41,604 nt of DNA from NCBI GenBank assembly GCA_021414115.1, contig JAIOPD010000040.1, positions 1-41,604 of the forward strand, written 5' to 3'. A program made the translations under genes and the position numbers. Below the pieces are notes generated by a model that saw nothing but the letters and a program-made list of their open reading frames with translations, did no database searches and was not told where the DNA came from. This stretch comes from Planctomycetia bacterium. Lineage in GTDB: Bacteria > Planctomycetota > Planctomycetia > Pirellulales > UBA1268. This document shows positions 6,680-21,886 of this stretch, piece by piece (within the stretch, counting starts at the first letter, position 1; every line of letters starts with the position of its first letter).

Positions 6680-7702
6680 ATGAGCAATCCCCTCGTTTCG
6701 ATCTGCATACCCACGTACAACCGGCTGGCGCTCCTACAGGCCGCAGTCCAGTCCTGCCTCGCCCAAACGTTTACAGACTTTGACATCGTCATCACGGACA
6801 ACAGCGATCGCGATGATTCGGAGCAGTGGGTTCGGCAACTGAACGATCCCCGCATTCGGTATCACCGCAACGAGCGCAATCTCGGGGGGGCGGGCAACTT
6901 CTCCAAGGCGATTTCCTTGGCGCGCGGGAAGTACGTGAAATTGCTCATGGACGACGACCTCATGAAGCCAGAGTTCCTCGCGCTCACCGTGGCGGCATTG
7001 GAAAAGCATCCGACCGCCGGTGTGGCCATGGCCCCCATGGATCTCATTGATGTGCACAGCGCGCCGATCACGCCTCGATTCTATTTGGTCAAGAGGATGC
7101 ATTATCGATACAGATATCGGGTGGGCGATGGCTTGATCGACCGAAAGACGCTACTGCGTGACTTCCTGACTCGTGATTACCCCTGCTGCGTTCCCAGTGG
7201 CGTGTTATTCCGCAAGGAATTCTTCGATCGATTCGGAGGCAATGACCCTGCCGCGGATTTTGGCCAAGACCTGGACTTGTGCATGCGGGCAGCCGTTCAT
7301 TACGACTTTTATTACATCGACCAGGTGCTTTCTTCGTGGCGCTATTTTCCTGAAAATCACACCGCCACATTGCACCGATCGGGCTATCCGATCCATGTCT
7401 TCTACTACATCACTCGCAAGATATTGTCTGATCCAGAAGCGAGGAGAATCTTCGCTGGAGAGAACTGGCAGAGGTTGGAACGACAAAGCTATTACTTTGC
7501 CAGCTGCCGGTGCTTGCTGAACCTTCAAGCCGCTTTGTTTCGGCACGATCCAAGGATCATCGCCTCGACTTTCGCAACGATCTGGCGGGAGGATCCGTAT
7601 CGGACCAACCTCTTGCGCCTGCCTTTTTCCGTGCTCGGTGAAGTGTGGACAGGGCTTTTTCCAGCGAAATTGCCGCCGCCCCCTCGGGACGGTTGTTTTT
7701 AG
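6680..7702 (+). CDS. GT2 family glycosyltransferase
   Basis: A 340-aa inverting GT-A enzyme. PLVSICIPTYNR (4-15) opens the nucleotide-binding fold, and VITDNSDRDDSE and LLMDDDLMKPEF (DDD at 91-93) supply the metal and donor-binding acidic residues. The later CVPSGVLFRKEFF and AADFGQDLDLCMRA match the acceptor-binding and catalytic-base region of rhamnosyl/galactosyltransferase-like GT2s. The start at 6680 is chosen because the fold begins there; an upstream start would add a Cys/Trp-rich stretch unlike the family. No transmembrane segment is evident, so it should act at the cytoplasmic membrane face during repeat-unit assembly. Confidence 0.87.
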   Translation: MSNPLVSICIPTYNRLALLQAAVQSCLAQTFTDFDIVITDNSDRDDSEQWVRQLNDPRIRYHRNERNLGGAGNFSKAISLARGKYVKLLMDDDLMKPEFLALTVAALEKHPTAGVAMAPMDLIDVHSAPITPRFYLVKRMHYRYRYRVGDGLIDRKTLLRDFLTRDYPCCVPSGVLFRKEFFDRFGGNDPAADFGQDLDLCMRAAVHYDFYYIDQVLSSWRYFPENHTATLHRSGYPIHVFYYITRKILSDPEARRIFAGENWQRLERQSYYFASCRCLLNLQAALFRHDPRIIASTFATIWREDPYRTNLLRLPFSVLGEVWTGLFPAKLPPPPRDGCF

Positions 7703-8606: not shown

Positions 8607-9757
8607 CCGCCGTGGCCGAGGGCGCGCCGTTTCGAGGCATCTTTCACGGGGCCCGCGTGCTCGTGACGGGCCACACGGGCTTCAAGGGTTCTTGGCTCTG
8701 CCAGTGGCTACTCTCGCTGGGCGCCGATATCACGGGTTTCGCATTGGAACCGGAAACCTCGCCGGCCCTGTTCAGCCAATTACAGCTGGCGAATCGCCTG
8801 CGGCACATCGTCGGGGACATCCGGTGTGCCGACTCGGTCCATCGAGTTGTGGCCGACACACGTCCCGAATTCGTGTTTCATCTGGCCGCGCAACCGCTCG
8901 TGAGGCGGTCATACCGCGAGGCCTGCTACACGTGGGAAACGAACGTGTTGGGCACGGTGCACGTGCTCGACGCACTGCGGCGGCTTCCCGACCAGTGCGC
9001 GGCCGTCATGGTGACGACCGATAAATGCTACGAGAACCGCGAGATCCCTCACGGCTATTCGGAAACTGATCCGCTGGGCGGCCACGATCCCTACAGTTCG
9101 AGCAAGGCAGCGGCCGAACTGGCGATTGCTTCCTGGCGGGATTCATTCTTTGCCGCCGGCCATCCGGTGCGCATCGCCAGCGCGCGTGCGGGAAACGTGA
9201 TCGGCGGGGGCGATTGGGCCGAGGACCGGATCGTGCCCGATTCGATTCGCGCCCTTGCCCGTGGCGAGCCGATCCACGTGCGCAACCCGCACGCCACCCG
9301 CCCGTGGCAGCACGTGCTCGAGCCGACGAGCGGCTACATGGCGCTCGCCGCCGCGTTGCGGAAAAGTCCGGAGGATCGGCGACTGGTTTCGGCGTTCAAC
9401 ATCGGCCCCGGGCGGGAGGCCAACCAGCCCGTGAAGCGACTCGTGGAAACCGCACTCGAGCACTGGCCGGGAACGTGGACGAACGGCGCCGATCCGGCCG
9501 CCTTCCACGAGGCGGCTCTCCTGCAACTCGACAGCGGTAAAATCGAGTCGCTGGTCGGCTGGCGGCCGACGTGGAATTTTTCGGAGGCCGTTGAACGCAC
9601 GGTGGCCTGGTATCGAGACATGGAGATCGAGTCGCAGGGCTGCGCCGCTGACCGGACGATGCGCGACATCTGCGACTACGTGTCCGCCGCCACCCGGCAG
9701 GGAGTTTCCTGGGCTGCCGGTCGCCTGCCTCACCCTGCGAGCACCGCCGATGGCTGA
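8603..9757 (+). CDS. rfbG: CDP-glucose 4,6-dehydratase
   Basis: A 384-aa short-chain dehydrogenase of the extended class, converting CDP-D-glucose to CDP-4-keto-6-deoxyglucose with bound NAD+. It has [13 protein letters not shown] (19-31), [11 protein letters not shown], the TTDK block at 138-141 and the catalytic YSSSK at 164-168. [21 protein letters not shown] is a hallmark of CDP-glucose dehydratases and is present almost intact. It overlaps rfbF by 4 nt and rfbH by 8 nt. The extreme C-terminus beyond about residue 350 is variable and reads through the rfbH start region. Confidence 0.95.
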
Positions 9758-11192
9758 ACCCGCATCCGAGGCCGAACTGCGTGCGGAAATCCTGCGGCTC
9801 GTCCGCGAGTATGCGGGTCTCCGGCATGCTGGCTTCGCGCTCCCGGCGGCCGGTGATCCCGAAGGATTCACGCCCGGAGTGTCGCCCGTGCCGTATGCCG
9901 GGCGGGTATTTGACGCCGATGAAGTCGAAGCAGGCGTGGCATCGCTCCTAGACTTTTGGCTCACTCTGGGAGTGGAAGGCGAGGCGTTTGAGCGCGAGTT
10001 GGCCGCGATGCTCGGCGTTCGCAACTCGATCCTCGTCAACTCGGGATCGTCCGCAAACCTGGTCGCATTTTCCGCGCTGACCAGCCCGAAGCTGGGCGAT
10101 CGACGGCTCAAGCCCGGGGATGAGGTGATCACGGTCGCGGCGGGGTTTCCGACAACGGTCGCTCCGATCGTGCAAAACGGGTGCGTGCCGGTGTTCATCG
10201 ACAACGACCCCGCCACGCTCAACGCCCGCGTCGAGCAACTCGACGACGCCTACGTGCCCGGGAAAACCCGGGCCGTGATGATGGCGCACACGCTCGGCAA
10301 TCCCTTCGACGTGACGGCCGTCACCGACTTCTGCCGCCGGCACGACCTGTGGCTGATCGAAGACAATTGCGACGCGCTGGGGAGCACGTATGACGGCACC
10401 CTCACGGGCACGTTCGGAGACCTTTCCACGCAGTCGTTCTATCCGCCGCACCACATCACGATGGGCGAGGGCGGGGCGGTGAACGTGGTCCGAAACGCCG
10501 GCCTGAAGCTGCTCGTGGAGAGCTTTCGCGATTGGGGACGCGACTGCTGGTGCCCCAGCGGCAAGGACAACACCTGCAACAAGCGCTTCGGCTGGCACCT
10601 CGGTGAGCTTCCCGAGGGCTACGACCACAAATACATCTACACGCACCTCGGCTACAACCTGAAGCCGACCGACGTCCAGGCCGCCATCGGGCGGAAGCAG
10701 TTGCAGAAGTTTCCGGCCTTCGCCGCCGCGCGCCGCCGCAACTGGCACACGCTGCGGACGCTGCTCGACCCGCTGTCGGAATGGCTCGACTTCCAGCTGC
10801 CCACGCACGCGACGGCGTGGACGCAGGCTGGCTTCACCTGGGATTTCAGCGGCCACCGCAGCGAACCGTCGTGGTTCGGCTTCATGATCCGCGTGAAGCC
10901 TGGCAGCCCGGTTTCCCGCAGGGATCTGGCGGTCGCGCTCGACGACGCCAAGATCGGCAATCGCATGCTGTTTGGCGGTAATCTCGTGCGGCAGCCGGTG
11001 TTTGCGCAGGCCCGCAAGACGGGGGCATTTCCGATGCGGATCGTCGGCGATCTGGCGGGCGCCGATGCGATCATGAATGAGACGTTGTTCGTGGGCACGT
11101 ACCCTGGATTGCGAGAAGCCGCATGCGGCTTCATTGCCGGCACGATCGCGAAGCTGTATCGATGCCAATCAGTCGCTGTTCAGCCGCGGTGA
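9750..11192 (+). CDS. rfbH: CDP-4-keto-6-deoxyglucose 3-dehydratase (E1)
   Basis: A 480-aa PMP- and [2Fe-2S]-dependent enzyme that removes the C3 hydroxyl of CDP-4-keto-6-deoxyglucose. The aminotransferase fold is clear ([24 protein letters not shown]), but the usual PLP lysine is replaced by histidine in [14 protein letters not shown] (His234/235), as in E1. Cys207, Cys266, Cys268 and Cys276 ([12 protein letters not shown]) match the unusual cluster ligands of E1. E1 needs an NADH-dependent iron-sulfur flavoprotein (E3, RfbI/AscD type) for electrons, and none is in this window. The start at 9750 matches the family N-terminus, and upstream in-frame sequence is the rfbG shadow. Confidence 0.95.
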
Positions 11193-11198
11193 GGCCTC

Positions 11199-12119
11199 GT
11201 GAAACGGGTATTCGTTACCGGCGCGACGGGATTCATCGGAGAGGCGGTCTCGCGCCGCTTGCTTGCCGATGGCCACGAGGTCGCCGTCCTCGTCCGTCCC
11301 GAATCCTCACGATGGAGGCTTAGGCCGATCATCGACCGGATTCATGTGATATCCGGTTCCTGCGACTCACCAGCCATGTTTGCACGATCACTGGCAGACT
11401 TCTGCCCCGACACCGTAATACACCTGGCTTGGCACGGGGTGGGCGGTGTGCATCGCAATGATTCGGATCAGATTTGCAAGAACGTCTGCGGGTCGGTCGA
11501 GTTCTTTGAGACGGCGGCCAAAGCCGGTTGTCGTGTGTTCGTCGGAACTGGTTCGCAAGCCGAATACGGGCCCAGCCGCGACGTCTTGCACGAGCAGAGC
11601 CCGGCACGGCCCGTTACGGCGTACGGAGCAGCCAAACTCGCCACCTCCATTCTGCTGGCCCAGCGCGCCGCGCTGCACGACGTAGGATTCGCCTGGCTGC
11701 GCGTCTTTTCCGTGTTCGGGCCGGGAGACGACGCCGGAACACTGATGAGTTACGTCACCACGGAATTGCTGTCGCGACGCTGCCCCGCCGTCAGCAAGTG
11801 CGATCATGTGTGGGACTATTTGTTCGTCGACGACGCAGCAAACGCGTTCGTCGTGGCGGCGCAATCGCAGGCGACTGGCGTGATCAATGTCGCGTCCGGA
11901 CAAGCCGCTCCCCTGCGAGACATGATCTCCAGGGTGCGCAACGCGATCGATCCATCTCTGCCGATCGATTTCGGTGCGGTCGCTGAACCGCCGTCCGGAA
12001 CCTATCCACTTCAGGCCGATATCGACAGGCTGAGGGCACTGGGCTGGAGACCGGAGACGCCCGTCGATGACGCGATCGAACAGACTGTTTCTTGGTATCG
12101 TCATCGAGGTGCCGTCTAG
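11199..12119 (+). CDS. NAD(P)-dependent epimerase/reductase of an activated sugar
   Basis: A 306-aa extended short-chain dehydrogenase. FVTGATGFIGEAV (5-17) is the nucleotide-binding glycine motif, and VGTGSQAEYG with Y142 and K146 of TAYGAAKLA form the catalytic Ser/Thr-Tyr-Lys set. WDYLFVDDAANA and the late LGWRPETPVDDAIEQTV are typical of sugar epimerases and reductases. Start is GTG 11199, seven bases after rfbH, with GGTGAGG just before. In known pathways this position is held by the C4 reductase (abequose, paratose or ascarylose type) or, in yersiniose loci, the reductase of the branched side chain. Which role applies here is not decidable from sequence, but the downstream transketolase pair favours the second. 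Confidence 0.85.
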   Translation: MKRVFVTGATGFIGEAVSRRLLADGHEVAVLVRPESSRWRLRPIIDRIHVISGSCDSPAMFARSLADFCPDTVIHLAWHGVGGVHRNDSDQICKNVCGSVEFFETAAKAGCRVFVGTGSQAEYGPSRDVLHEQSPARPVTAYGAAKLATSILLAQRAALHDVGFAWLRVFSVFGPGDDAGTLMSYVTTELLSRRCPAVSKCDHVWDYLFVDDAANAFVVAAQSQATGVINVASGQAAPLRDMISRVRNAIDPSLPIDFGAVAEPPSGTYPLQADIDRLRALGWRPETPVDDAIEQTVSWYRHRGAV

Positions 12120-12141
12120 GCTTACCGCGGGATCACACGTC

Positions 12142-12960
12142 ATGACTCCTCAATGCTATCGCCCCGGCCCAGTCTTCGACCCCAAGGATCTGCGCCGCCA
12201 CATCCTGCGCATGGCGTTCCATGGACAATCGGTGCACGTTGCTTGCGCCTTTTCCTTGGTCGAGATCTGTTCGGTGCTGTACTCCCAGTTCCTGCGGTTC
12301 GATCCCATGAACGCGGTCAGCCCGGGCCGTGATTTCCTCATCCTCTCCAAGGGGCACGGCGTCATGGCTCTTTACGCGTGTTTCCGGGAAATTGGCTGGC
12401 TCAAGGACAGCGACCTGGACACGTATTTTCGCAACGGCACGCACCTACGAGGACTGTGCGAGGCCGACGTTCCCGGATGCGAAGTAACGAGCGGATCGCT
12501 CGGCCATGGCCTGCCGATCGCCGCAGGAATTGCGTTCGGCCTTCGACGTCTTGGTAGTGACCGTCGCGTGTATTGCATCGTCGGTGATGGCGAGATGAAC
12601 GAGGGGCCGATGTGGGAGGCGTTCCTTTTCGCAGCTCATCAGAAACTCGATAACCTTACAGTGATCGTGGACGCGAATCGGTATCAAGCAATGGGGCGAA
12701 CGGAGGAAGTTCTCGGGCTCGAACCCTTGCCAGCAAAAATCGAGGCATTTGGGTTCGCGACGAAAGAGTGCGATGGCCACGATCCGGAGGCACTCACCCG
12801 CTGCCTATCGGATCTGCGGGAGATCGGTTCTCGCCCTGGTGCTCTCGTGGCGCGCACGACGAAAGGGCAAGGAGTGTCGTTCATGGCGGACGACAATCGC
12901 TGGCACTACACCCGACTTACCGAACATGATTATTTACGGGCGGTGAAAGAGCTTTCATGA
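12142..12960 (+). CDS. Transketolase N-terminal subunit
   Basis: A 272-aa thiamine diphosphate-binding half-transketolase. Features: FLILSKGHGVMALYAC with the catalytic-region His, VTSGSLGHGLPIAAGIA, and the ThDP/Mg motif from GDGEMNEG (GDG 148-150) to VIVDANR (Asn179). It ends 4 nt inside the partner gene, so the two halves form an alpha/beta enzyme. It moves a two-carbon ketol unit. Location directly after rfbFGH and a sugar reductase, rather than with pentose-phosphate genes, suggests that the acceptor is a CDP-keto-sugar. ATG 12142 is chosen; the reading frame extends upstream only into the previous gene. Confidence 0.9.
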   Translation: MTPQCYRPGPVFDPKDLRRHILRMAFHGQSVHVACAFSLVEICSVLYSQFLRFDPMNAVSPGRDFLILSKGHGVMALYACFREIGWLKDSDLDTYFRNGTHLRGLCEADVPGCEVTSGSLGHGLPIAAGIAFGLRRLGSDRRVYCIVGDGEMNEGPMWEAFLFAAHQKLDNLTVIVDANRYQAMGRTEEVLGLEPLPAKIEAFGFATKECDGHDPEALTRCLSDLREIGSRPGALVARTTKGQGVSFMADDNRWHYTRLTEHDYLRAVKELS

Positions 12961-13895
12961 TGCGCGACATGCTTTCCCAGCTGTTGGTCGAAGCGGCCGC
13001 GGCCGATGACCGATTCATCGTCTTGTCGGGCGACCATGGTTACGCCTTGTTCGACTCGCTGCGGGACGGCCACGGTTCGCAGTTTGTGAACGTTGGCGTC
13101 GCGGAACAAAACATGATCGGTGTAGCGGCCGGGTTGGCGAAAGTTGGCTTCAGGCCTTGCGTCTACGGCCTCGCAGCGTTCGTGCCGATCCGTGTGCTGG
13201 AGCAGATCAAACTCGATCTGTGCCATGCCAAGGCACCTGTGATTCTCCTAGGCGATGGAGCCGGCTTGGTGTATTCCACGCTGGGCGTATCCCACCAATG
13301 CGGCGAGGACGTCGCCTGCCTGCGGCCGCTTCCGGCCATCGCGATCTACTCACCTTGTGATAAATTCGAGTTGCAAGCTTGCTGGGCCGAAGCTCGCCGC
13401 GCTGATCATCCGTGCTATATCCGAATCGGTAAGGCGGACCGTCCTCCCGTTCACGACGCGGCGATCACGGATACGGAACCCCACTGGACGAACCAACGCG
13501 ATGTGCACAATCACGACCGACTGATCGTTGCGACAGGATCGATGACGAGCATCTCCACAGCGATCGCGCGGACGCACGGCGTGCCGTGCTTGAGCGTGTC
13601 ACGAATCAAACCCCTACCACCGAGCCTCGTTTTGGCTGTTCAGTCCCACCGCCAGACGATCGTGGTCGAAGAACACGCCCGTGCGGGCGGTCTATTCAGC
13701 GCGTTGGCGGAGGAACTCGCCTCTGCCGAGTCGCCATCCGGCCGACCTCATCTTGCGCACCTCGGCCTATCCACTCAATTTACCTTCACGGCCGGCTCGC
13801 ATGAACATGCCCTTTCCGAGCATCGACTGGATGATGCCGCCGTGAACCGCAGCCTCACCGCCTGGATCACCGCAAGCCCAGGTCAAATGTCCTAG
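12957..13895 (+). CDS. Transketolase C-terminal subunit
   Basis: A 312-aa pyrimidine-binding and C-terminal half of transketolase. VNVGVAEQNMIGVAAGLA places the essential activating glutamate at E50, and GLVYSTLGVSHQCGEDVACL is the expected donor-phosphate and active-site loop, with SHQ in place of the usual THH-like segment. The C-terminal domain (LIVATGSMT, VVEEHARAGGLFSALAE) completes the fold. It overlaps the N-terminal subunit by 4 nt. Divided transketolases are common in bacteria and archaea, but this pair sits inside a sugar-nucleotide cluster. Related two-subunit enzymes add two-carbon branches to activated sugars in some antibiotic pathways. That role here is inferred from context only. 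Confidence 0.9.
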   Translation: MMRDMLSQLLVEAAAADDRFIVLSGDHGYALFDSLRDGHGSQFVNVGVAEQNMIGVAAGLAKVGFRPCVYGLAAFVPIRVLEQIKLDLCHAKAPVILLGDGAGLVYSTLGVSHQCGEDVACLRPLPAIAIYSPCDKFELQACWAEARRADHPCYIRIGKADRPPVHDAAITDTEPHWTNQRDVHNHDRLIVATGSMTSISTAIARTHGVPCLSVSRIKPLPPSLVLAVQSHRQTIVVEEHARAGGLFSALAEELASAESPSGRPHLAHLGLSTQFTFTAGSHEHALSEHRLDDAAVNRSLTAWITASPGQMS

Positions 13896-13925: not shown

Positions 13926-15833
13926 ATGAGAACGACCAAGTCGACAAAACAGGTTGCGGACCGCATGCCCGAAGACGTTCCAAACAATGCCGTACCAAGC
14001 GAGGGCAGGTTTCTCGCGAAGACCTGCGAATGGACTGTGTGCGTCGGCGTTCTCGTACTCACGGCCGTCATCTGGTGCGTCGCATACGGGAAGTTCTCCC
14101 CGTCATCGTGGGCGTTGCCCACGACGTATGTCGATCCCGTGTATTCCGACTTCCTCGCAACAGCCGGCCTCGTCAAGGCCATCAGCGAAGGATATTGGAT
14201 GCCCTTCGGCTGGAAAAAAGTCCCGCAACTGGCAGCGCCCGACGTGGCAAACTGGGGCGGATTTCCAACGACGGACGAGGTGGTGTTTTTGGTGTGTGGG
14301 CTGCTGGCGCGGCTGTGCGGGCTGTTTACCGGATTCAACCTCGCGTTGCTTTTCGGACATCTGGCCGCTGCAGCGACCTTCTATTTCGTCGCTACACGCT
14401 GGCTCCGCGCCACTCCCGCATGGTCATTCGTCGGGGGTCTCGCCTTCGGCCTCGCCCCCTACCTGTTTGCCGAATCGCCCCACCACATCAACTGCGTTTA
14501 TGCCTGGCATGTCCCGCTGTTTCCGATCGTGTGGACAGAGGTCGCCAGCGGCCAGGGGCTCCAGTGGCGGTCGAGATCGTGGTGGCAGGCGCTGGCCATC
14601 GCCTTCGTGACGGGGCTCTTCTTCCCCTACTACACGTTCGTCTTCTGCCAACTCACGCTCCTTGGAGGGGCGGTGGCCGCGTGGAAACAGCGGGCCCGAA
14701 CAGCGCTGCTGTCAGCCGCTGCGGTCGTCGCCGCCGCTGCCGCCGGTTTTTTTGTCTGCAACCTCGATACGCTCACGTATCGAATGGCTCATGAGTCCGG
14801 CGATGGACCGATCGTCGCCGAGAGGCAATACAAGTGGATGGATATTTACGGGTTCAAGCTCGTGGACATGTTCATCCCGTCGTTCACGCACCACTCCGAG
14901 ACGCTCGCAAAGTTTGGCATCGCGCACCGTCAGGCGTCGGTGCTGAACGACGAGGAGGGCTGCGCCTACCTCGGCATGCTCGGGATTTGCTGCCTCCTCG
15001 CGCTCGTGGCTGCCGCCGCCAAAGCCTTGCTCAATGACAACCTCGCCGCCGTGCCCATCCAGGCATGGTGGGTGCTCTGGATCGTGCTTTTCTTTAACAC
15101 TGGCGGACTCAACTCCCTGCTGGCCGCATTTACAGGGTTGACGCTCTTTCGCACGGCCTGTCGCTACAGCGTCGTCATTCTTGTGATCGCGTTGCTCTAT
15201 GGAGTACAGAGGCTCTCGCAGTGGCATCGCGACGCCACGGGCCGGACCCCCGCCGACCTGCTGCGCGTCGGAACTCTCACGGCGGCGATCTCGGCCTGCT
15301 TGGTTGTGATCTGGGATCAGGTGCCGCGGGCGCCTGCCGCCGAGCAAACGGCCCTGATCGCGAAACTCGTCGACTCGGACCGGGCGTTCGTCGGCAAACT
15401 GCAAGCCGCTCTGCCCGACAAAGCCATGGTCTTCCAGTTTCCGGTGATGGATGGCACGCCGCTGCCGGGCATTCCGTCATCCGACCATTACCGCCCGTAC
15501 CTCTACAGCTCGAGCCTGCACTGGTCGAGCGGCGCCCTCCCCGGCAGCGCGACGCTGCAGTGGCAGCAGGCCGTGCAGCAAACACTCGTCGCAGGTGCTT
15601 CCATCGACCAGCAGAGCAAGCAGGTGAAGTTCGACCTCGGCAGCGTGCGGCAGGCCGTCGAAGCGATGCGCAGCAAGGGCTTCGCTGCGATCTACGTCAA
15701 CCGCAACGGTTTCCCCGACCGAGGCAAGGGGCTCTTCGATGCCCTCGTCGAACTGGGCTACGAGACACCGCCGATCTACAGCCCGGCCGGTGATCTGGCC
15801 TGCCTCATTCTCAGTGACCGCCGTGCCGAATGA
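13926..15833 (+). CDS. Large multi-pass membrane protein, GT-C glycosyltransferase-like
   Basis: A 635-aa protein with about ten to twelve hydrophobic segments between residues 35 and 465, then a soluble C-terminal domain of about 165 residues. An acidic motif in the first external loop (VDPVYSDFLATAG) and a long early loop before the third helix are typical of GT-C glycosyltransferases, which use polyprenyl-phosphate-linked sugars on the outer face of the membrane. The C-terminal part (FVGKLQAALPDKAMVFQFPV and AAIYVNRNGFPDRGKG) looks like the soluble domain of bacterial YfhO/ArnT-like membrane proteins. It is last in the polysaccharide run, 30 bp after the transketolase. No family can be named firmly; a role as transferase or polymerase for the glycan is plausible. 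Confidence 0.6.
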   Translation: MRTTKSTKQVADRMPEDVPNNAVPSEGRFLAKTCEWTVCVGVLVLTAVIWCVAYGKFSPSSWALPTTYVDPVYSDFLATAGLVKAISEGYWMPFGWKKVPQLAAPDVANWGGFPTTDEVVFLVCGLLARLCGLFTGFNLALLFGHLAAAATFYFVATRWLRATPAWSFVGGLAFGLAPYLFAESPHHINCVYAWHVPLFPIVWTEVASGQGLQWRSRSWWQALAIAFVTGLFFPYYTFVFCQLTLLGGAVAAWKQRARTALLSAAAVVAAAAAGFFVCNLDTLTYRMAHESGDGPIVAERQYKWMDIYGFKLVDMFIPSFTHHSETLAKFGIAHRQASVLNDEEGCAYLGMLGICCLLALVAAAAKALLNDNLAAVPIQAWWVLWIVLFFNTGGLNSLLAAFTGLTLFRTACRYSVVILVIALLYGVQRLSQWHRDATGRTPADLLRVGTLTAAISACLVVIWDQVPRAPAAEQTALIAKLVDSDRAFVGKLQAALPDKAMVFQFPVMDGTPLPGIPSSDHYRPYLYSSSLHWSSGALPGSATLQWQQAVQQTLVAGASIDQQSKQVKFDLGSVRQAVEAMRSKGFAAIYVNRNGFPDRGKGLFDALVELGYETPPIYSPAGDLACLILSDRRAE

Positions 15834-16504: not shown

Positions 16505-16576
16505 ACTTTGGCGTCGATTGCCGCCGGTCGCTGTGCCGGCAAGAATACACCTGAACACCTGCGGAACGAGTCCCCC

Positions 16577-17296
16577 ATGATCACCTCCCTTGCCGACATC
16601 AAGCGTCACCTCCAGCCGGGGTTCACCGAGTTGCAGACCAATCTGCTCGCCACCTGCCTCTACGAGTGTTACGAGCCCATCGTGCACCAACGGGAAATGG
16701 CCGCGATCCGCGACACCCTCGATCGCGCGGCTGCAATCCAGGCGCGGACGGACGAGCGTCTCGAGAGAATCGCAGCTGGACAGGATGCCTCAAACCAGCG
16801 GATCGACCGGCTCGTGGCTGCCCAAGAAGAGATGCGAGCGGACATCGAGAACCTCGTCGATGTCACCAGAGAAGTGGTGTGGGGCATCGGCGACCTCCGC
16901 AAGCAGGTCGGCGGCATCGCCCTCTCGGTCGGCCAGGGCCTCGAGGCCTACGCCATGGAGCGAATCCCGGCGCTGTTGGAGGAGCGGTATGGCTTTAAGA
17001 CGCAGTCGGCGATGCCTGAAGTCATCGGGCCGCCTGGTGCCTCGTCGGAGATCGACGTCGTCTACCGGGGCTCGCACGAGGGCCAGCCGGTCGTCGTGCT
17101 CTCGGAGGTAAAGACGAACATCACCGAGACGGAAGTGCGGGATTTTCTCGCGGTCACAGACCGCGTGCGAGGGGCAGCCGGCTCGCCTGACGTTCGCGTG
17201 CTGTTTTTCTGCTACCGGGCGGCCGATTCCGCCCGCCGGCTGATCGCCGAATACGGCTGCCTGCTGGCTTTTCCGCGGGGCCTGGTCGTGGACTGA
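16577..17296 (+). CDS. Coiled-coil protein with PD-(D/E)XK nuclease-like domain (DUF3782-like)
   Basis: A 239-aa protein. Residues about 50-115 are heptad-rich coiled coil (ERLERIAAGQDASNQRIDRL). The C-terminal 110 residues carry a PD-(D/E)XK-like core: SSEIDVVYRG supplies the Asp and VVVLSEVKTNIT the E-x-K. Homologues are usually called DUF3782 or, misleadingly, chordopoxvirus fusion protein, and their biological role is unknown. Start ATG 16577 follows a strong promoter whose TGTACA motif is shared with the gene at the window's left edge, so it is probably a single regulated gene. It could be a repair or defence nuclease; this is not established. Confidence 0.7.
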   Translation: MITSLADIKRHLQPGFTELQTNLLATCLYECYEPIVHQREMAAIRDTLDRAAAIQARTDERLERIAAGQDASNQRIDRLVAAQEEMRADIENLVDVTREVVWGIGDLRKQVGGIALSVGQGLEAYAMERIPALLEERYGFKTQSAMPEVIGPPGASSEIDVVYRGSHEGQPVVVLSEVKTNITETEVRDFLAVTDRVRGAAGSPDVRVLFFCYRAADSARRLIAEYGCLLAFPRGLVVD

Positions 17297-17326: not shown

Positions 17327-18925
17327 ATGCTTCCCGGCGACCACAAATGGAATCGGTGGATTCTCGTGCGGCAGGCGGCGATTCTTGCCGGCATTACGCT
17401 GGCTGTCTTCTCGACCACGCTCTCGGCAGGCTTCGTGTACGACGCGAGGCTACAGATCCTGACCGATCCGTTTCTGCACGATCCGTGGAACTGGCCGAGC
17501 GTGCTCTCGTTCCGCGTACTCGGCATGGACGTGCTCGACTTCAACCGGCCGGTGCATCTGGCCTCGCTCATGCTCGATGCGGCCGTCTGGGGACGGGAGT
17601 CCTTTGGCTACCACCTTTCAAGCATCCTCTTGCACGCGTTGAACGTGGTGCTGGTGTGGCTGGTGGTGCAGGCGGTGTTGACGGGCCACGAGGAGCGACG
17701 CGACGAGGATGAGCCACAGACGAGCCGCTCGCTGGCGGCGTTTCTCGCGGCGCTCTCCTTTGCCGTGCACCCGGTCGTCGTCGAGGCGGTCTGCGAGCCG
17801 ACGTTTCGGGAGGACCTGCTGGCGGCGGCGTTTACACTCGGGGCGGTCGTGCTCGCAGCGGGACACGCCGCAGCGGCGGGGGCGGAGTCTCGTCGGGCGG
17901 TGGGCTGTGTGATCATGTGCCTGCTCGCCGTCGCCAGCAAAGAGTCGGGTGTCGCGGCGCCGGTCGTGCTCGCCGCTTTCTGGTGGCTCTTTCGCGGCGG
18001 CGAGCGGACCCGGTTCTGGAGCGTGGCGATCGGCGGCGGGCTTGTGCTCGTGGCGGCGTTTCTCGCAGCGAGATTTTTACTGGAGCCGTCGCCCTCGCGG
18101 ATCTTCGAGACAAAGCCCGACTACCCAGGGGGCTCGTTCGCCGAGGTGCTGAAGATCGAGCCCCGAATCCTGGCCCTTTATGCCCAGTTGATCGTCTTCC
18201 CGGTCAACCTCTGCGCCGACTACGGGCTCTACTCCGTCCGCCATCTGCCGCTCTGGGCCTCGCTCGTCGTGCTGGCAGTGCTTGGCTTGCTCGCAGCCTT
18301 CGCCGTGCGGCAGGACCGCCGCATCCTCTTTGGGCTGGTCCTGCTGCTCGGGCCACTCGTGCCGGTATCGAATCTGGTGCCGATCTACCGGGCCGCAGCC
18401 GACCGTTATCTCTACCTGCCGCTGGCCGGCGTGGCATGCATCGCCGCCTGTGTGCTCGATTCGGCATGGGCGGCGCGGAACGAACTCCGCCGGCAGACCG
18501 TGATGACGGGATCGCTGGCGGCGATCGTCGTGCTGGCAGCGATCTGCCTCGGCAGGCAGGCCGTGTGGGCGAGCCAGCTCGCGCTGTGGGAGAATACGTT
18601 CCAGCGAATCCCCACGTCGTATACCGCCGCGCACGGCTATTCCTCGGCCCTCCGCGCGGCAGGCAGGAACGAAGAGGCGGTGGCGTTGGCCCGACGGGCG
18701 ATCGAACTTTCTGACGGCAAGCGGGGCGATGCCTGGCTCACGCTGGCACTGGCGCTCGACGCTGCGGGGCAAGCGACCGAGGCCGACAAGATGACGGCCA
18801 AGGCGGTCGAGATCGATGGCCGGCTGGCCGATCCGGATGCCCGCGTCGCGGCGCTCGCGATGGAGCGGGACGAGGCGGAGGAAGTGAAGCGGATTCTGAC
18901 GCGAACGAGCAGCGCGATCCGTTAA
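17327..18925 (+). CDS. TMTC-like multi-pass membrane protein with C-terminal TPR
   Basis: A 532-aa protein with about eleven hydrophobic segments in the first 430 residues and tetratricopeptide-like helices at the end (AHGYSSALRAAGRNEEAVAL, DAWLTLALALDAAGQATEAD). The membrane part matches the TMTC/DUF1736 pattern: GFVYDARLQIL near residue 35, FNRPVHLASLMLD, GYHLSSILLHALNVVL, AVHPVVVEAV followed by FREDLLAAAF, and RAAADRYLYLPLAG. Animal TMTC proteins are O-mannosyltransferases that use dolichyl-phosphate mannose; bacterial relatives are uncharacterised. Its stop overlaps that of a DPM1-like synthase on the opposite strand. One residue of the usual diacidic YDD motif is changed (YDA), which may affect catalysis. 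Confidence 0.75.
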   Translation: MLPGDHKWNRWILVRQAAILAGITLAVFSTTLSAGFVYDARLQILTDPFLHDPWNWPSVLSFRVLGMDVLDFNRPVHLASLMLDAAVWGRESFGYHLSSILLHALNVVLVWLVVQAVLTGHEERRDEDEPQTSRSLAAFLAALSFAVHPVVVEAVCEPTFREDLLAAAFTLGAVVLAAGHAAAAGAESRRAVGCVIMCLLAVASKESGVAAPVVLAAFWWLFRGGERTRFWSVAIGGGLVLVAAFLAARFLLEPSPSRIFETKPDYPGGSFAEVLKIEPRILALYAQLIVFPVNLCADYGLYSVRHLPLWASLVVLAVLGLLAAFAVRQDRRILFGLVLLLGPLVPVSNLVPIYRAAADRYLYLPLAGVACIAACVLDSAWAARNELRRQTVMTGSLAAIVVLAAICLGRQAVWASQLALWENTFQRIPTSYTAAHGYSSALRAAGRNEEAVALARRAIELSDGKRGDAWLTLALALDAAGQATEADKMTAKAVEIDGRLADPDARVAALAMERDEAEEVKRILTRTSSAIR

Positions 18926-19704
18926 CAACCCAGCCAGGTGCGGCGGGCGAGCCTGAGCAGATCGCCGATGCTGCGGCGGGTCTCGGCGAAGTCGGCCTTG
19001 CTCGACCCGTGCGTGCGGTCGGTGAACGTGATCGGCACCTCGACGATGCGGGCCCCCGCACGGTGCAGTCGCCAGAGGAGGTCTTCCTGGAACGCGTAGC
19101 CCCGTGACTCGGGGGCCGCGATGCGATCGAGCAGCGAGAGACGAACCGCGCGAAAACCGCCCGAGCCGTCGCGGACCGGTACGCCGAGCACCCACCGCGT
19201 GAACCAGCAGACGAGACGGCTGGTGACTTCACGGGACAGCGGCCAGCCAAGCGTTTTTCCACCGGGCACGCGGCGGGAGCCGATGGCCAGGTCGGCAGGC
19301 GTGCCGCCCGGGGGTTCCATCGCGATGAGGAGCCGGGGGATGTCATCGGGATCGTGGCTCATATCGGCGTCCATGTAGACCGCGATTTCGAAGCCGCGGC
19401 GACGGGCCTCGTGGAGACCCTCGAGGATCGCGCTGCCGAGTCCGCGGCGTCCGTGACGGACAAGCACGTGGAGCCTTGGTTCCGTCGCCGTCTTCTCCAG
19501 GGCGATTTGGCCGGTGCCGTCGGGGGAATCGTCGTCGATGACGAGCATGTGGAGATCGGGCCGGGCCGCCAACACGCGGTCGATCAGCGTGGCGATGTTA
19601 TCGCGTTCGTTGTAGGTCGAGGCGTTGACGATGATCCGGCCTGCGGTCCATGGCTCGGCAGAGCGGGTATCGGATGCGGAGGATGGTTCAGATGGCGAAG
19701 CCAT
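18922..19704 (-). CDS. DPM1-like polyprenyl-phosphate glycosyltransferase (GT2)
   Basis: A 260-aa cytoplasmic GT2 enzyme of the polyprenol-monophosphomannose synthase group. It has IIVNASTYNERDNI (24-37), LVIDDDSPDGTG, YMDADMSHDP with the DAD metal site, GSRRVPGG, and GYAFQEDLLWRLHRAGARIVE followed by FTDRTHGSSK. This is the full DPM1 motif series, without the C-terminal membrane helices of longer homologues. It should attach mannose or another hexose to undecaprenyl phosphate. The first 22 residues are a Ser/Pro-rich extension. Gene order (20438 to 18922) makes it the second gene after the transglutaminase-like gene, 47 bp downstream. Its TAA overlaps the TAA of the TMTC-like gene in a shared TTAA. 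Confidence 0.88.
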   Translation of the reverse strand: MASPSEPSSASDTRSAEPWTAGRIIVNASTYNERDNIATLIDRVLAARPDLHMLVIDDDSPDGTGQIALEKTATEPRLHVLVRHGRRGLGSAILEGLHEARRRGFEIAVYMDADMSHDPDDIPRLLIAMEPPGGTPADLAIGSRRVPGGKTLGWPLSREVTSRLVCWFTRWVLGVPVRDGSGGFRAVRLSLLDRIAAPESRGYAFQEDLLWRLHRAGARIVEVPITFTDRTHGSSKADFAETRRSIGDLLRLARRTWLGC

Positions 19705-19751: not shown

Positions 19752-20438
19752 TCAGCGGCCGCGGGACGCGTGGTCGCGGAGCAGGTTGCTGCGGGCCTCG
19801 ATCTCGTCGATCGGCCGAAGCGACGCCTCCGCGGCCCGCGGCAGGATTCGGAAGTGCCGCGCGGCCGTGAGCGAGTCAACGACTTCGTGGCAGAAGCCCT
19901 TGTGGGTTATCCAGAGCGCGGGATCGAAGCGTCGCAGGTCGATCGACACCGAGTAGGTGCGGAGGGTCTTGCGCCGCTTCTTGACATATTGCGGGAAGAA
20001 CGAAATCGAGAGTTCGCGGAGCGAACGGTGGATCGGATCGCGGTAGCGGAGAAAGGGGCTGTTGCTCTTCGAGATCGCGCCCCAGAGACCACGGCGCCGG
20101 AAGAGCACGACGACGTGGTCGACGTCGCCCCGCGCCGCCCCCATGTCCATCACGAGCGGCGGCTCACCGGCGAGCCAGAGCGAGCATGCCGCGATGAAGG
20201 CGGCCTCCACGCACTGCGCCTCGCCGTGGCGGAGCGCCTCGGCCACCGACCGGGCGGTGGGACCGTGGGCTTCGTGGTTCCACCGGAGACGGTTAACGAA
20301 GTCTTGGATCCGCTCGGGAGTCCGCAGGGCGGCGAGCCTCGCGGCAACGTTCCGCGGCAGGCCGAGGTGAACACCGAGGGCGGTGCCACGGGCAGGCGAG
20401 GCGGCGGCAGGGGAGTGCTGGCGGGGGCGTGCTATCAC
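19752..20438 (-). CDS. Transglutaminase/papain-like protein of unknown function
   Basis: A protein of about 228 aa. GEAQCVEAAFIAACSLW, DVDHVVVLFRRRGLWGAI and SKSNSPFLRYRDPI give an ordered Cys-His-Asn/Asp arrangement expected of transglutaminase-like cysteine enzymes. The RDPIHRSLRELSISFFPQY block recurs in uncharacterised bacterial proteins I recognise only as hypothetical. The start is uncertain: GTG 20438 is used here. The open frame extends to 20588, but that extension runs through a repeat B copy (20548-20658) and is probably not coding. It precedes the DPM1-like gene by 47 bp on the same strand. Substrate and pathway are unknown. Confidence 0.6.
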   Translation of the reverse strand: MIARPRQHSPAAASPARGTALGVHLGLPRNVAARLAALRTPERIQDFVNRLRWNHEAHGPTARSVAEALRHGEAQCVEAAFIAACSLWLAGEPPLVMDMGAARGDVDHVVVLFRRRGLWGAISKSNSPFLRYRDPIHRSLRELSISFFPQYVKKRRKTLRTYSVSIDLRRFDPALWITHKGFCHEVVDSLTAARHFRILPRAAEASLRPIDEIEARSNLLRDHASRGR

Positions 20439-20547
20439 GGCCGGAGGGTACCACCGCCGCGGTCGCGGCGAAATCGGCGGGGGGCACTTTCCGACCTCGC
20501 GTGAGGCACCTTCCGGCTCGATTCGGCCGCGAGGCACTGCCTCGGTT

Positions 20548-20658
20548 CGGGAAGCCCCAAGCGCGAGCGCGGGGAATCCGGCCCCCATCTCGAGCCGCTC
20601 CCCGCCGCCGAAACGGTCGCCACCCGTCTACCCGTCGCTTGCGCTCCGGGCTTCCCGG
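20548..20658 (+). repeat. Repeat element B, full copy
   Basis: About 111 bp with near-complementary ends: GGGAAGCCCCAAGCGCGAGC at the left and GCTTGCGCTCCGGGCTTCCC at the right, with a variable core. Further full copies are at 30432 (reverse), 34748 and 34903, and half copies at 2021, 23313 and 33111. Confidence 0.75.
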
Positions 20659-20692
20659 AACCGGCGGTCGGGAAAATCACCGTACCGAAATG

Positions 20693-20722
20693 TCGACCTT
20701 TTCGCGACGGCTTTCGTAGAAT
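20693..20722 (+). promoter_or_regulatory. Probable promoter of the Gly/Trp/Cys-repeat protein
   Basis: TCGACC (20693-20698), 18-nt spacer, TAGAAT (20717-20722), 24 bp before the ATG at 20747. The -10 matches five of six consensus bases and the -35 four. A GGAGG (about 20736-20740) provides the ribosome site. Confidence 0.4.
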
Positions 20723-20746
20723 GCTGCTAACCACTGGAGGGTTGCC

Positions 20747-21886
20747 ATGACACGTCGATTTGTGTGCGTGATCGCGGTGTGTGCCGCAGTTGTGATCGGC
20801 TCGTGGAGTCGCGAGGCCACGGCCCGGGGCTGCTATCCCACGTTCGGCTACGGCAATGTCGGCTACTCCGCCGGCTATAGCATGCAGCGGGTCGGCTTCT
20901 GCGGCCCACGCTGGGGCGGATGGTGTGCGCCTCGCGCGGCATGGTGCGGCCCACGCTGGGGCGGATGGTGCGCGCCGCGATTCAACTGGGGCGGCTGGTG
21001 CGGCCCGCGATGGGGTTGGGGCTGCCGACCCTGGGGCTGGCGATCCGCCTGCTACGCCCCGGCCTATTCGTATGGCTGCTCGTATGGCTGGCCCGTGTCG
21101 TACGGCACGTCGTGGTATCCGTCGTGCGAGTCGATCTATTACTCGTCGCCCGTGGGCGGCTCGTTCTTCTCTGGCGGCTTGATTCCCTTTCCGACGATCG
21201 GCTACGGCTATCCCGCCGTCGTGCCCGGATTCGTCTCGACGAACACCGTGGCGACGCCCGTCGCGAACCTCGCGAGCGTCAGGCCCGCCCTGCCGCAGGT
21301 GCAGCAGGTGGCCGCGACGATTCGCGATCTGCGGAGCCGCCGCGCGGCCGCCCAGCAGACGGCGGTGGCGCCGACCGCAGTGGCGCAGACGGCGACCCGC
21401 GGTCGGCCCAGCAACGCGATCGCGAGGCTGCGGGCTGCGCGGCTCGTCGCGGTGGGTGACCGCCAACTCCGCGATGCCAAGGGCGATCCAACGCTCGTGC
21501 GCCGCGCGGTCGATTCCTACCGCCGTGCCGGAGCCATCGCCGGCGATCAGCCCGACACGTTTGTCCGCGAGGCGATCGCGCTGGTGGCCCTCGGAGAACG
21601 CGGGCAGGCCGACGCCGCCATGGCCAAGGCCGTGGCCATCGACGGACGGCTCGCCGACCTGCCCCCGGCCCGGGGCAATCAGCCGCCCGATCCCGTCTTC
21701 GGTGACCGCTCGGCCGAGGCGGAACAACCGCTCGCCGCCCGCGGAAAGGCCGTGCTGCGGCAGATCGGGGCGGAGACGACTGCCGGCGATTCCGATCCTG
21801 CGGTCCAGTGGCTGGCCGGCCGCTGGGCGGACCGGTTCGGAGGCGTACTCAACGCCGTGGCGTCAAACGGCCGCCGCGTGGAGTGA
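20747..21886 (+). CDS. Secreted Gly/Trp/Cys-repeat protein with TPR-like C-terminus
   Basis: A 379-aa exported protein. A signal peptide is clear (RRFVCVIAVCAAVVIGSW, cleavage likely after ATA). Residues about 45-105 are repeats of the form CGPRWGGWCAPR, rich in Gly, Trp and Cys, followed by a Tyr/Ser-rich section. After an Ala/Gln-rich linker the last 150 residues form two helical TPR-like units (DPTLVRRAVDSYRRAGAIAG, ALVALGERGQADAAMAKAVA). The DNA encodes an exact direct repeat of about 25 bp with a 45-bp period. Repeats of this sort are common in surface or envelope proteins, but no family is recognised. Start is fixed by GGAGG eight bases upstream. Confidence 0.75.
   Translation: MTRRFVCVIAVCAAVVIGSWSREATARGCYPTFGYGNVGYSAGYSMQRVGFCGPRWGGWCAPRAAWCGPRWGGWCAPRFNWGGWCGPRWGWGCRPWGWRSACYAPAYSYGCSYGWPVSYGTSWYPSCESIYYSSPVGGSFFSGGLIPFPTIGYGYPAVVPGFVSTNTVATPVANLASVRPALPQVQQVAATIRDLRSRRAAAQQTAVAPTAVAQTATRGRPSNAIARLRAARLVAVGDRQLRDAKGDPTLVRRAVDSYRRAGAIAGDQPDTFVREAIALVALGERGQADAAMAKAVAIDGRLADLPPARGNQPPDPVFGDRSAEAEQPLAARGKAVLRQIGAETTAGDSDPAVQWLAGRWADRFGGVLNAVASNGRRVE
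20901..20970 (+). repeat. In-gene tandem repeat coding CGPRWGGWC
   Basis: Two identical 25-bp units (20901-20925 and 20946-20970), 45 bp apart, beginning GCGGCCCACGCTGGGG. A degenerate third unit starts near 20997. Confidence 0.8.

Follow-up and report, generated by a model that had tools for sequence, protein, structure and literature searches.

We asked whether a TMTC-like membrane protein and a putative polyprenyl-phosphate sugar synthase, encoded side by side in a planctomycete genome, act together in the glycosylation of exported proteins, as an earlier note on this locus had proposed. The window (the whole stretch of DNA analyzed here, 41,604 nt) is one entire contig (C7) from a genome assembly of 144 contigs that totals 4.35 Mb. 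We examined the two genes and their predicted products within the window, and we followed their orthologs and neighbors through related genomes.

Two convergent genes in a planctomycete contig

Reading of the open frames gave two convergent genes, denoted TMTC-A (532 aa) and GT2 (Table 1). Their TAA stop codons overlap in TTAA, exactly as had been described, and the convergent orientation means that the two are not part of one transcript, which had also been pointed out correctly. We measured the distance between stops at 20 loci, of which five pair TMTC-A with GT2 and 15 pair GT2 with TMTC-B, a second TMTC-like gene introduced below. The overlap was found in the window only, and the remaining 19 gaps were 0–205 nt long. 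Being private to the window genome among these 20 loci, the overlap was rejected as a meaningful feature.

Table 1. Features of the locus, in window coordinates
Feature	Position	Strand	Basis
mem635, GT-C-fold membrane protein (by model) with a C-terminal domain, upstream of TMTC-A	13926..15833	+	Model, AftA match, linkage
TMTC-A, TMTC-like GT-C membrane glycosyltransferase (predicted) with a short C-terminal TPR	17327..18925	+	ORF, model, fold, orthologs
D39 codon, in the first loop, behind predicted membrane helix 1; putative match to the first Asp of the TMTC DD	17441..17443	+	Invariant 31/31
K205-E206 codons; putative TMTC motif M4 (KE)	17939..17944	+	Invariant 31/31
D359-R360 codons; putative TMTC motif M7 (ERxxY), reads DRYLY	18401..18406	+	D359, R360, Y363 invariant 31/31
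TTAA, overlapping TAA stops, unconserved among relatives	18922..18925		ORF ends, 20-locus comparison
GT2, probable DPM1-like polyprenyl-phosphate hexose synthase, 260 aa	18922..19704	-	Pfam, 5mlz, invariant residues

Several other genes lie close by. The stretch directly upstream of mem635 (9591–13895) encodes an RfbH-type protein, an epimerase and, in two genes, proteins like the N- and C-terminal halves of a transketolase, an arrangement that resembles a nucleotide-deoxysugar cluster. A gene for a 262-aa protein (16508–17296), to which no Pfam family matched over cut-off, adjoins TMTC-A here and in loci L081, L090 and L093. Two genes without a Pfam match (278 and 379 aa; 19752–21886) lie beyond GT2, and among the compared loci they were seen only in L075, L082, L083 and L093.

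GT2 is most likely a polyprenyl-phosphate hexose synthase

The GT2 product matches the Pfam family Glycos_transf_2 (E 2.1e-24), and its best match among solved structures is the dolichol monophosphate mannose synthase 5mlz (E 6.6e-27, 97.8 bits), with three ArnC sequences far behind (33–36 bits). Residues 23–238 align with 5mlz, and the two proteins have the stretches DDDSPD, MDAD and GSR in common. Unlike DPM1, the planctomycete protein has no strongly hydrophobic segment, as its maximal 19-residue hydropathy is 0.97. All 14 NCBIfam matches fell below their cut-offs and were of mixed specificity. An alignment of 42 GT2 sequences contained 41 invariant residues, including D57, D58, H117, R144, R158 and R230 as well as D112 and D114 of a putative DxD, a metal/nucleotide motif. 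GT2 is thus most likely a polyprenyl-phosphate hexose synthase, and the hexose is probably mannose. The earlier description of a DPM1-like gene of the polyprenyl-phosphate mannose synthase type held up in this comparison, with mannose itself as its conditional part.

TMTC-A models as a GT-C membrane enzyme with a TPR end

The neighbor of GT2 had been described as a TMTC/DUF1736-type protein ending in TPRs. In the window protein, the Pfam family TMTC_DUF1736 scored 16.1 bits (E 0.011), below its cut-off of 27, and all TPR matches, which lie within residues 433–509, were sub-threshold. A set of 31 TMTC-A orthologs, window protein included, gave a firmer picture of the C terminus, with TPR_2 matched in all 31 at E ≤ 0.05 (best 3.2e-10). 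DUF1736 was matched in 12 of the 31 at the same threshold, and even the best of these matches (E 7.3e-4) is very likely under the 27-bit cut-off (a member with E 0.0016 scored 18.8 bits). PMT_2 had a weak match in three orthologs, and the window protein had no PMT match in Pfam. Searches with PF08409 in the window genome and in a set of 60 genomes gave no match at E ≤ 0.001; the controls were unmatched too, making these searches uninformative on absence.

We then relied on predicted structure. The TMTC-A model, built on 31 sequences, has a pLDDT of 85.3 and a pTM of 0.88. A structural aligner placed it near Pmt4 (9i5k_A; Z 20.2, 334 residues, rmsd 4.2), a yeast oligosaccharyltransferase chain (Z 20.2), chain 6p25_B of the Pmt1–Pmt2 complex (Z 20.0, 346 residues) and ArnT (Z 17.5). 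Foldseek alone returned nothing at E ≤ 0.001, with AglB and ArnT among its five best matches (E 3.1e-3 to 8.6e-3, TM-scores ∼0.4). Sequence searches of the PDB with the TMTC-A profile (best 60 of 108 matches) and the TMTC-B profile (best 60 of 288) aligned the C-terminal repeat region only, mostly with TPR, PPR and designed repeat proteins. Because the matches listed are limited to the repeat region, we base the GT-C assignment on the comparison of folds, in which the N-terminal membrane domain of TMTC-A models as a GT-C fold. The earlier description therefore stands for the predicted membrane fold and the TPR end, and not for a DUF1736 match over cut-off.

Putative catalytic residues of TMTC-A

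The available part of PMC7801869 tabulates seven motifs for the human TMTCs, among them a DD in external loop 1 that is strictly conserved, and states that the first Asp of this DD is present in all sugar transferases of that paper's search. We matched TMTC-A to these tabulated motifs by eye, on an alignment made up of its orthologs and no eukaryotic TMTC, and all equivalences are putative in this sense. The candidate for the first Asp of M1 is D39, present in all 31 rows. The residue after it is A or S in 24 of the 24 displayed rows, so that the second Asp is absent from every displayed ortholog. A lack of acidic loop residues across homologs had been named as the observation that would speak against a catalytic reading, and it is half borne out: One Asp is kept throughout and the other is gone.

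The putative counterparts of M2 (N73-R74-P75), M3 (R161-E162-D163) and M4 (K205-E206) are invariant in the 31-row alignment. At M5 we found DY in place of DW (D298 in at least 90% of rows, Y299 invariant), and at M7 DRxxY in place of ERxxY (D359-R360-Y361-x-Y363 invariant). Matched in this way, the counterparts of M2–M7, M6 (PxxP) excepted, are conserved but partly altered from the human motifs. TMTC-A therefore resembles the animal protein O-mannosyltransferases TMTC1–4 (GT105) in its predicted GT-C fold, its C-terminal TPR and its putative M1 (first Asp), M2 (RP), M3 (RxD), M4, M5 and M7, and it differs from them in the A or S at the second Asp of the DD, the sub-cut-off DUF1736 match, the short TPR and the bacterial host. 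As neither a DUF1736 match over cut-off nor the full DD motif was found, we call the protein TMTC-like, by architecture and site, and stop short of assigning it to TMTC.

The conserved neighborhood has four genes

A locus search with a single sequence returned no relatives, and an alignment query returned 34 loci (33 with planctomycete titles and one titled "bacterium"). Most of these loci lie on contigs that also belong to the genomes counted below, and they are not independent evidence. Seven of the assemblies in which TMTC-A was found (L105, L109, L118, L124, L127, L128 and L129) are titled Candidatus Kuenenia stuttgartiensis, titles that look mislabeled judging from the distribution of the gene. 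Genome-wide comparisons covered 116 genomes, 72 of which, counting the window genome (G000), make up family f1.

The conserved unit is larger than a pair, with mem635, TMTC-A and TMTC-B in this order and GT2 convergent to them. Of the 26 genomes in which TMTC-A and GT2 are linked, 21 have TMTC-B between the two; in the other five (G000, G002, G004, G016 and G021) it is found on another contig. In the window genome this is contig C76 (4841–6757), 21 kb long, whose first 14 kb contain no GT2, TMTC-A or mem635. The protein is ∼630–670 aa long where the start is clear, and its first loop carries DDD in 14 of 14 sequences. An hhalign comparison of the TMTC-A and TMTC-B profiles gave 99.8% probability over 464 columns, TPR included. 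TMTC-B orthologs (at least 45% identity) were detected in 45 genomes of the family, namely, all 38 that have TMTC-A and seven more (G001, G005, G018, G033, G038, G050 and G070). The two TMTC-like genes thus co-occur strongly, with TMTC-B in 38/38 genomes that have TMTC-A versus 7/34 others (Fisher 1.1e-13, a value that ignores relatedness). In genome G057 they are fused in one open frame (L094:884–4621), a reading that rests on a single assembly and may reflect a sequencing error.

The gene mem635, which the earlier note had left out of the pairing, was present upstream of TMTC-A in 22 of the 34 named loci. Of the other 12, L109 and L111 are short upstream, L122–L129 and L133 correspond by name or length to contigs of genus g7 genomes, and L118 lacks it in the 4 kb upstream. 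Its product has no Pfam family above cut-off and no detectable sequence relation to TMTC-A (hhalign probability 0.4%). Its model (pLDDT 73.5, pTM 0.77, with some stretches <50) resembles AftA (8if8_B; Z 20.3, 490 residues) and yeast oligosaccharyltransferase chains (Z ∼18–19); mem635, too, models as a GT-C fold.

The likeness of mem635 to AftA, and of TMTC-A to ArnT, raises the possibility that these GT-C enzymes would use the lipid-linked sugar made by GT2 to decorate a glycolipid, an O-antigen or an envelope polysaccharide, and not proteins, with the TPR serving in complex assembly. The RfbH-type deoxysugar gene and the epimerase upstream of mem635 in the window point the same way, but among 40 loci of relatives, many of which span only a few kb, the RfbH-type gene had a single partial and weak match (33% identity, L076). 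On the other hand, the top structural neighbors of TMTC-A are protein O-mannosyltransferases and oligosaccharyltransferases, although the differences in Z are small, and its TPR end agrees with the architecture of TMTCs. We regard a glycolipid or polysaccharide acceptor as possible but rather doubtful.

Linkage is kept in most informative genomes of the family

TMTC-A orthologs are present in 38 of the 72 family genomes (best E 4.0e-81 or lower, at least 46% identity). Leaving out G012, G013 and G014, in which contig ends intervene, 35 genomes are informative, and in 26 of these TMTC-A is convergent to GT2 on the same contig at a distance of at most 2.5 kb, with G040 counted from a GT2 tail at a contig end (L115). 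The nine genomes in which the two genes are unlinked are all from genus g7, and they are all the g7 genomes that have TMTC-A. The check that the earlier note had suggested, whether the two families are neighbors in related genomes, hence came out in its favor, with exceptions confined to one genus. Four genomes that lack a TMTC-A ortholog (G001, G033, G038 and G050) have TMTC-B close and convergent to GT2, and so does G064, whose TMTC-A is at another site. Counting either gene, 31 of 41 informative genomes have a TMTC-like gene no more than 2.5 kb from GT2, and these 31 are spread over 10 of the family's 12 genera. The 41 are the 45 genomes with TMTC-B, less the three in which contig ends intervene and G005, where GT2 has no ortholog. 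Among the ten without a TMTC gene at GT2, G070 has mem635, and not TMTC-B, on the GT2 contig at a distance of ∼2.2 kb. All these rates come from genome-wide ortholog tables, for which up to 12 (TMTC-A), 22 (GT2) and 10 (TMTC-B) candidates were scored per genome, making absences less sure than presences. The compared loci, in contrast, were hand-picked as a linked set and a set of one-gene, contig-end-cut or other-family (three) loci, and proportions among them are not rates.

The arrangement of a TMTC-like gene convergent to a GT2 occurs twice in G044: At 7206–9860 of L165 (G044:C256:20000–34000), a second, paralogous TMTC-like gene is convergent to another GT2-like gene, with ∼27 bp between the frames.

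We considered whether the neighborhood could be an inherited order without functional meaning, in which GT2 would serve other pathways and the TMTC-like genes would work independently of it. GT2 homologs were detected in 115 of 116 genomes (E ≤ 1e-10) versus TMTC-A orthologs in 38, and GT2 therefore probably has uses besides TMTC-A. The convergent orientation and the unlinked TMTC-A of genus g7 are also consistent with such an order, as is the picture outside the family, where one of 23 GT2 neighborhoods, viewed up to ∼10 kb on each side (L078–L080 and L135–L154), has a TMTC-like gene (L140). Against this reading, the far flank of GT2 turns over while the TMTC side persists: A gene for the 278-aa protein h278, or a gene that we take to be hisD from its sequence, is kept beyond GT2 in three of 14 linked loci that are long enough on both sides (having been chosen as linked, these loci inform on the far flank only). 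Moreover, several rearranged genomes retain one TMTC gene at GT2, which is TMTC-A without TMTC-B in the five genomes with TMTC-B on another contig, and TMTC-B without TMTC-A in G001, G033, G038, G050 and G064. General gene order does not account for the linkage between the TMTC genes and GT2, and we consider it unlikely that the neighborhood is devoid of functional meaning.

A proposed route to glycosylated exported proteins

Computation supplied the genes, fold predictions for TMTC-A and mem635, the conserved residues, the linkage and the co-occurrence of TMTC-A and TMTC-B, and from these we infer a donor, a sugar (mannose), a flipping step, a protein acceptor and a partnership between the two TMTC-like proteins. 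GT2 would take a hexose (probably mannose) from a nucleotide sugar and attach it to polyprenyl phosphate at the cytoplasmic face, and some further protein would flip the lipid-linked sugar across the membrane. On the outer face of this membrane, TMTC-A and its putative partner TMTC-B, both TPR-ended, would pass the sugar on to an acceptor. Exported proteins that the TPRs would recruit are the most likely candidates, and mem635 may be a third GT-C enzyme using the same or a related donor. We hold with about even confidence that the four-gene unit consists in this way of a polyprenyl-phosphate-sugar synthase and several GT-C acceptor enzymes that glycosylate what are most likely exported proteins.

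A comparable scheme has been described for actinobacteria, in which, according to the accessible portion of PMC12757957, a GT2 enzyme makes polyprenyl-phosphate mannose, a hypothesized flippase follows, and a GT-C enzyme mannosylates exported proteins. Judged by fold, motif and linkage, the window genes fit the first and last of these steps. A search for GtrA and DPMS_TM in the window genome (95% complete) had no match and so offered no candidate flippase. Two neighboring matches to the PMT family (PF02366) are located elsewhere in this genome (G000:C81:53308–55589), and these proteins could use the same polyprenyl-phosphate sugar donor. Heavy O-glycosylation of the surface-layer protein of Kuenenia, also a planctomycete, is on record in the part of PMC5088730 available to us, which makes protein acceptors plausible.

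The proposal of a bacterial donor and acceptor-enzyme unit for O-glycosylation is thereby upheld in part. The predicted GT-C fold, the invariance of D39 and other putative ligand-site residues, the DPM-like neighbor and the kept neighborhood agree with it, whereas the lost second Asp, the sub-cut-off DUF1736 match and the nine unlinked g7 genomes do not, and mannose and the protein acceptor remain its conditional elements. Evidence against a unit also comes from the wider comparison, in which TMTC-B-like genes are present in 84 of 116 genomes (E ≤ 1e-10), yet just the one extra-family GT2 neighborhood in 23 contains a TMTC-like gene. A more far-reaching version of the proposal, which we offer as speculation, is that TMTC-A and TMTC-B would form an obligate pair like the Pmt1–Pmt2 dimer, with TMTC-B contributing the acidic DD(D) and TMTC-A the donor-site motifs (KE, RxD and DRxxY), and that together with mem635 and GT2 they would make up a dedicated planctomycete machine for the glycosylation of exported proteins.

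Relation to known systems

Bacterial TMTC homologs are already in print without an assigned function (PMC7801869, and PMC12757957, where they appear as "bacterial orthologues" of GT-105, both as far as accessible). They share the GT-C domain and TPRs with the genes described here, and TMTC-B with its DDD fits them best; TMTC-A, in contrast, is a divergent relative, and every genome in which it was found has TMTC-B as well. The accessible parts of these two papers make no mention of a linkage between bacterial TMTC homologs and a DPM-synthase-like gene, and literature searches confined to a collection of open-access papers listed none that describes the cluster of mem635, TMTC-A, TMTC-B and GT2 by title or abstract. 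The logic of a GT2 donor synthase plus a GT-C transferase is shared with actinobacterial O-mannosylation, which pairs a polyprenyl-phosphate mannose synthase with a GT39 PMT (PMC12757957, in its accessible part). The planctomycete system differs from it in that the acceptor enzyme is TMTC-like, without a PMT match in Pfam for the window protein, and in that there are several GT-C enzymes per cluster.

TMTC function is known from animals, and a cluster of TMTC-like genes with a donor synthase in one bacterial family provides a defined and testable gene set. The co-occurrence of TMTC-A and TMTC-B, with the motifs split between them, leads to a specific prediction on paired GT-C enzymes. More generally, the kept neighborhood of TMTC-like and donor genes hints at a putative bacterial glycosylation pathway.
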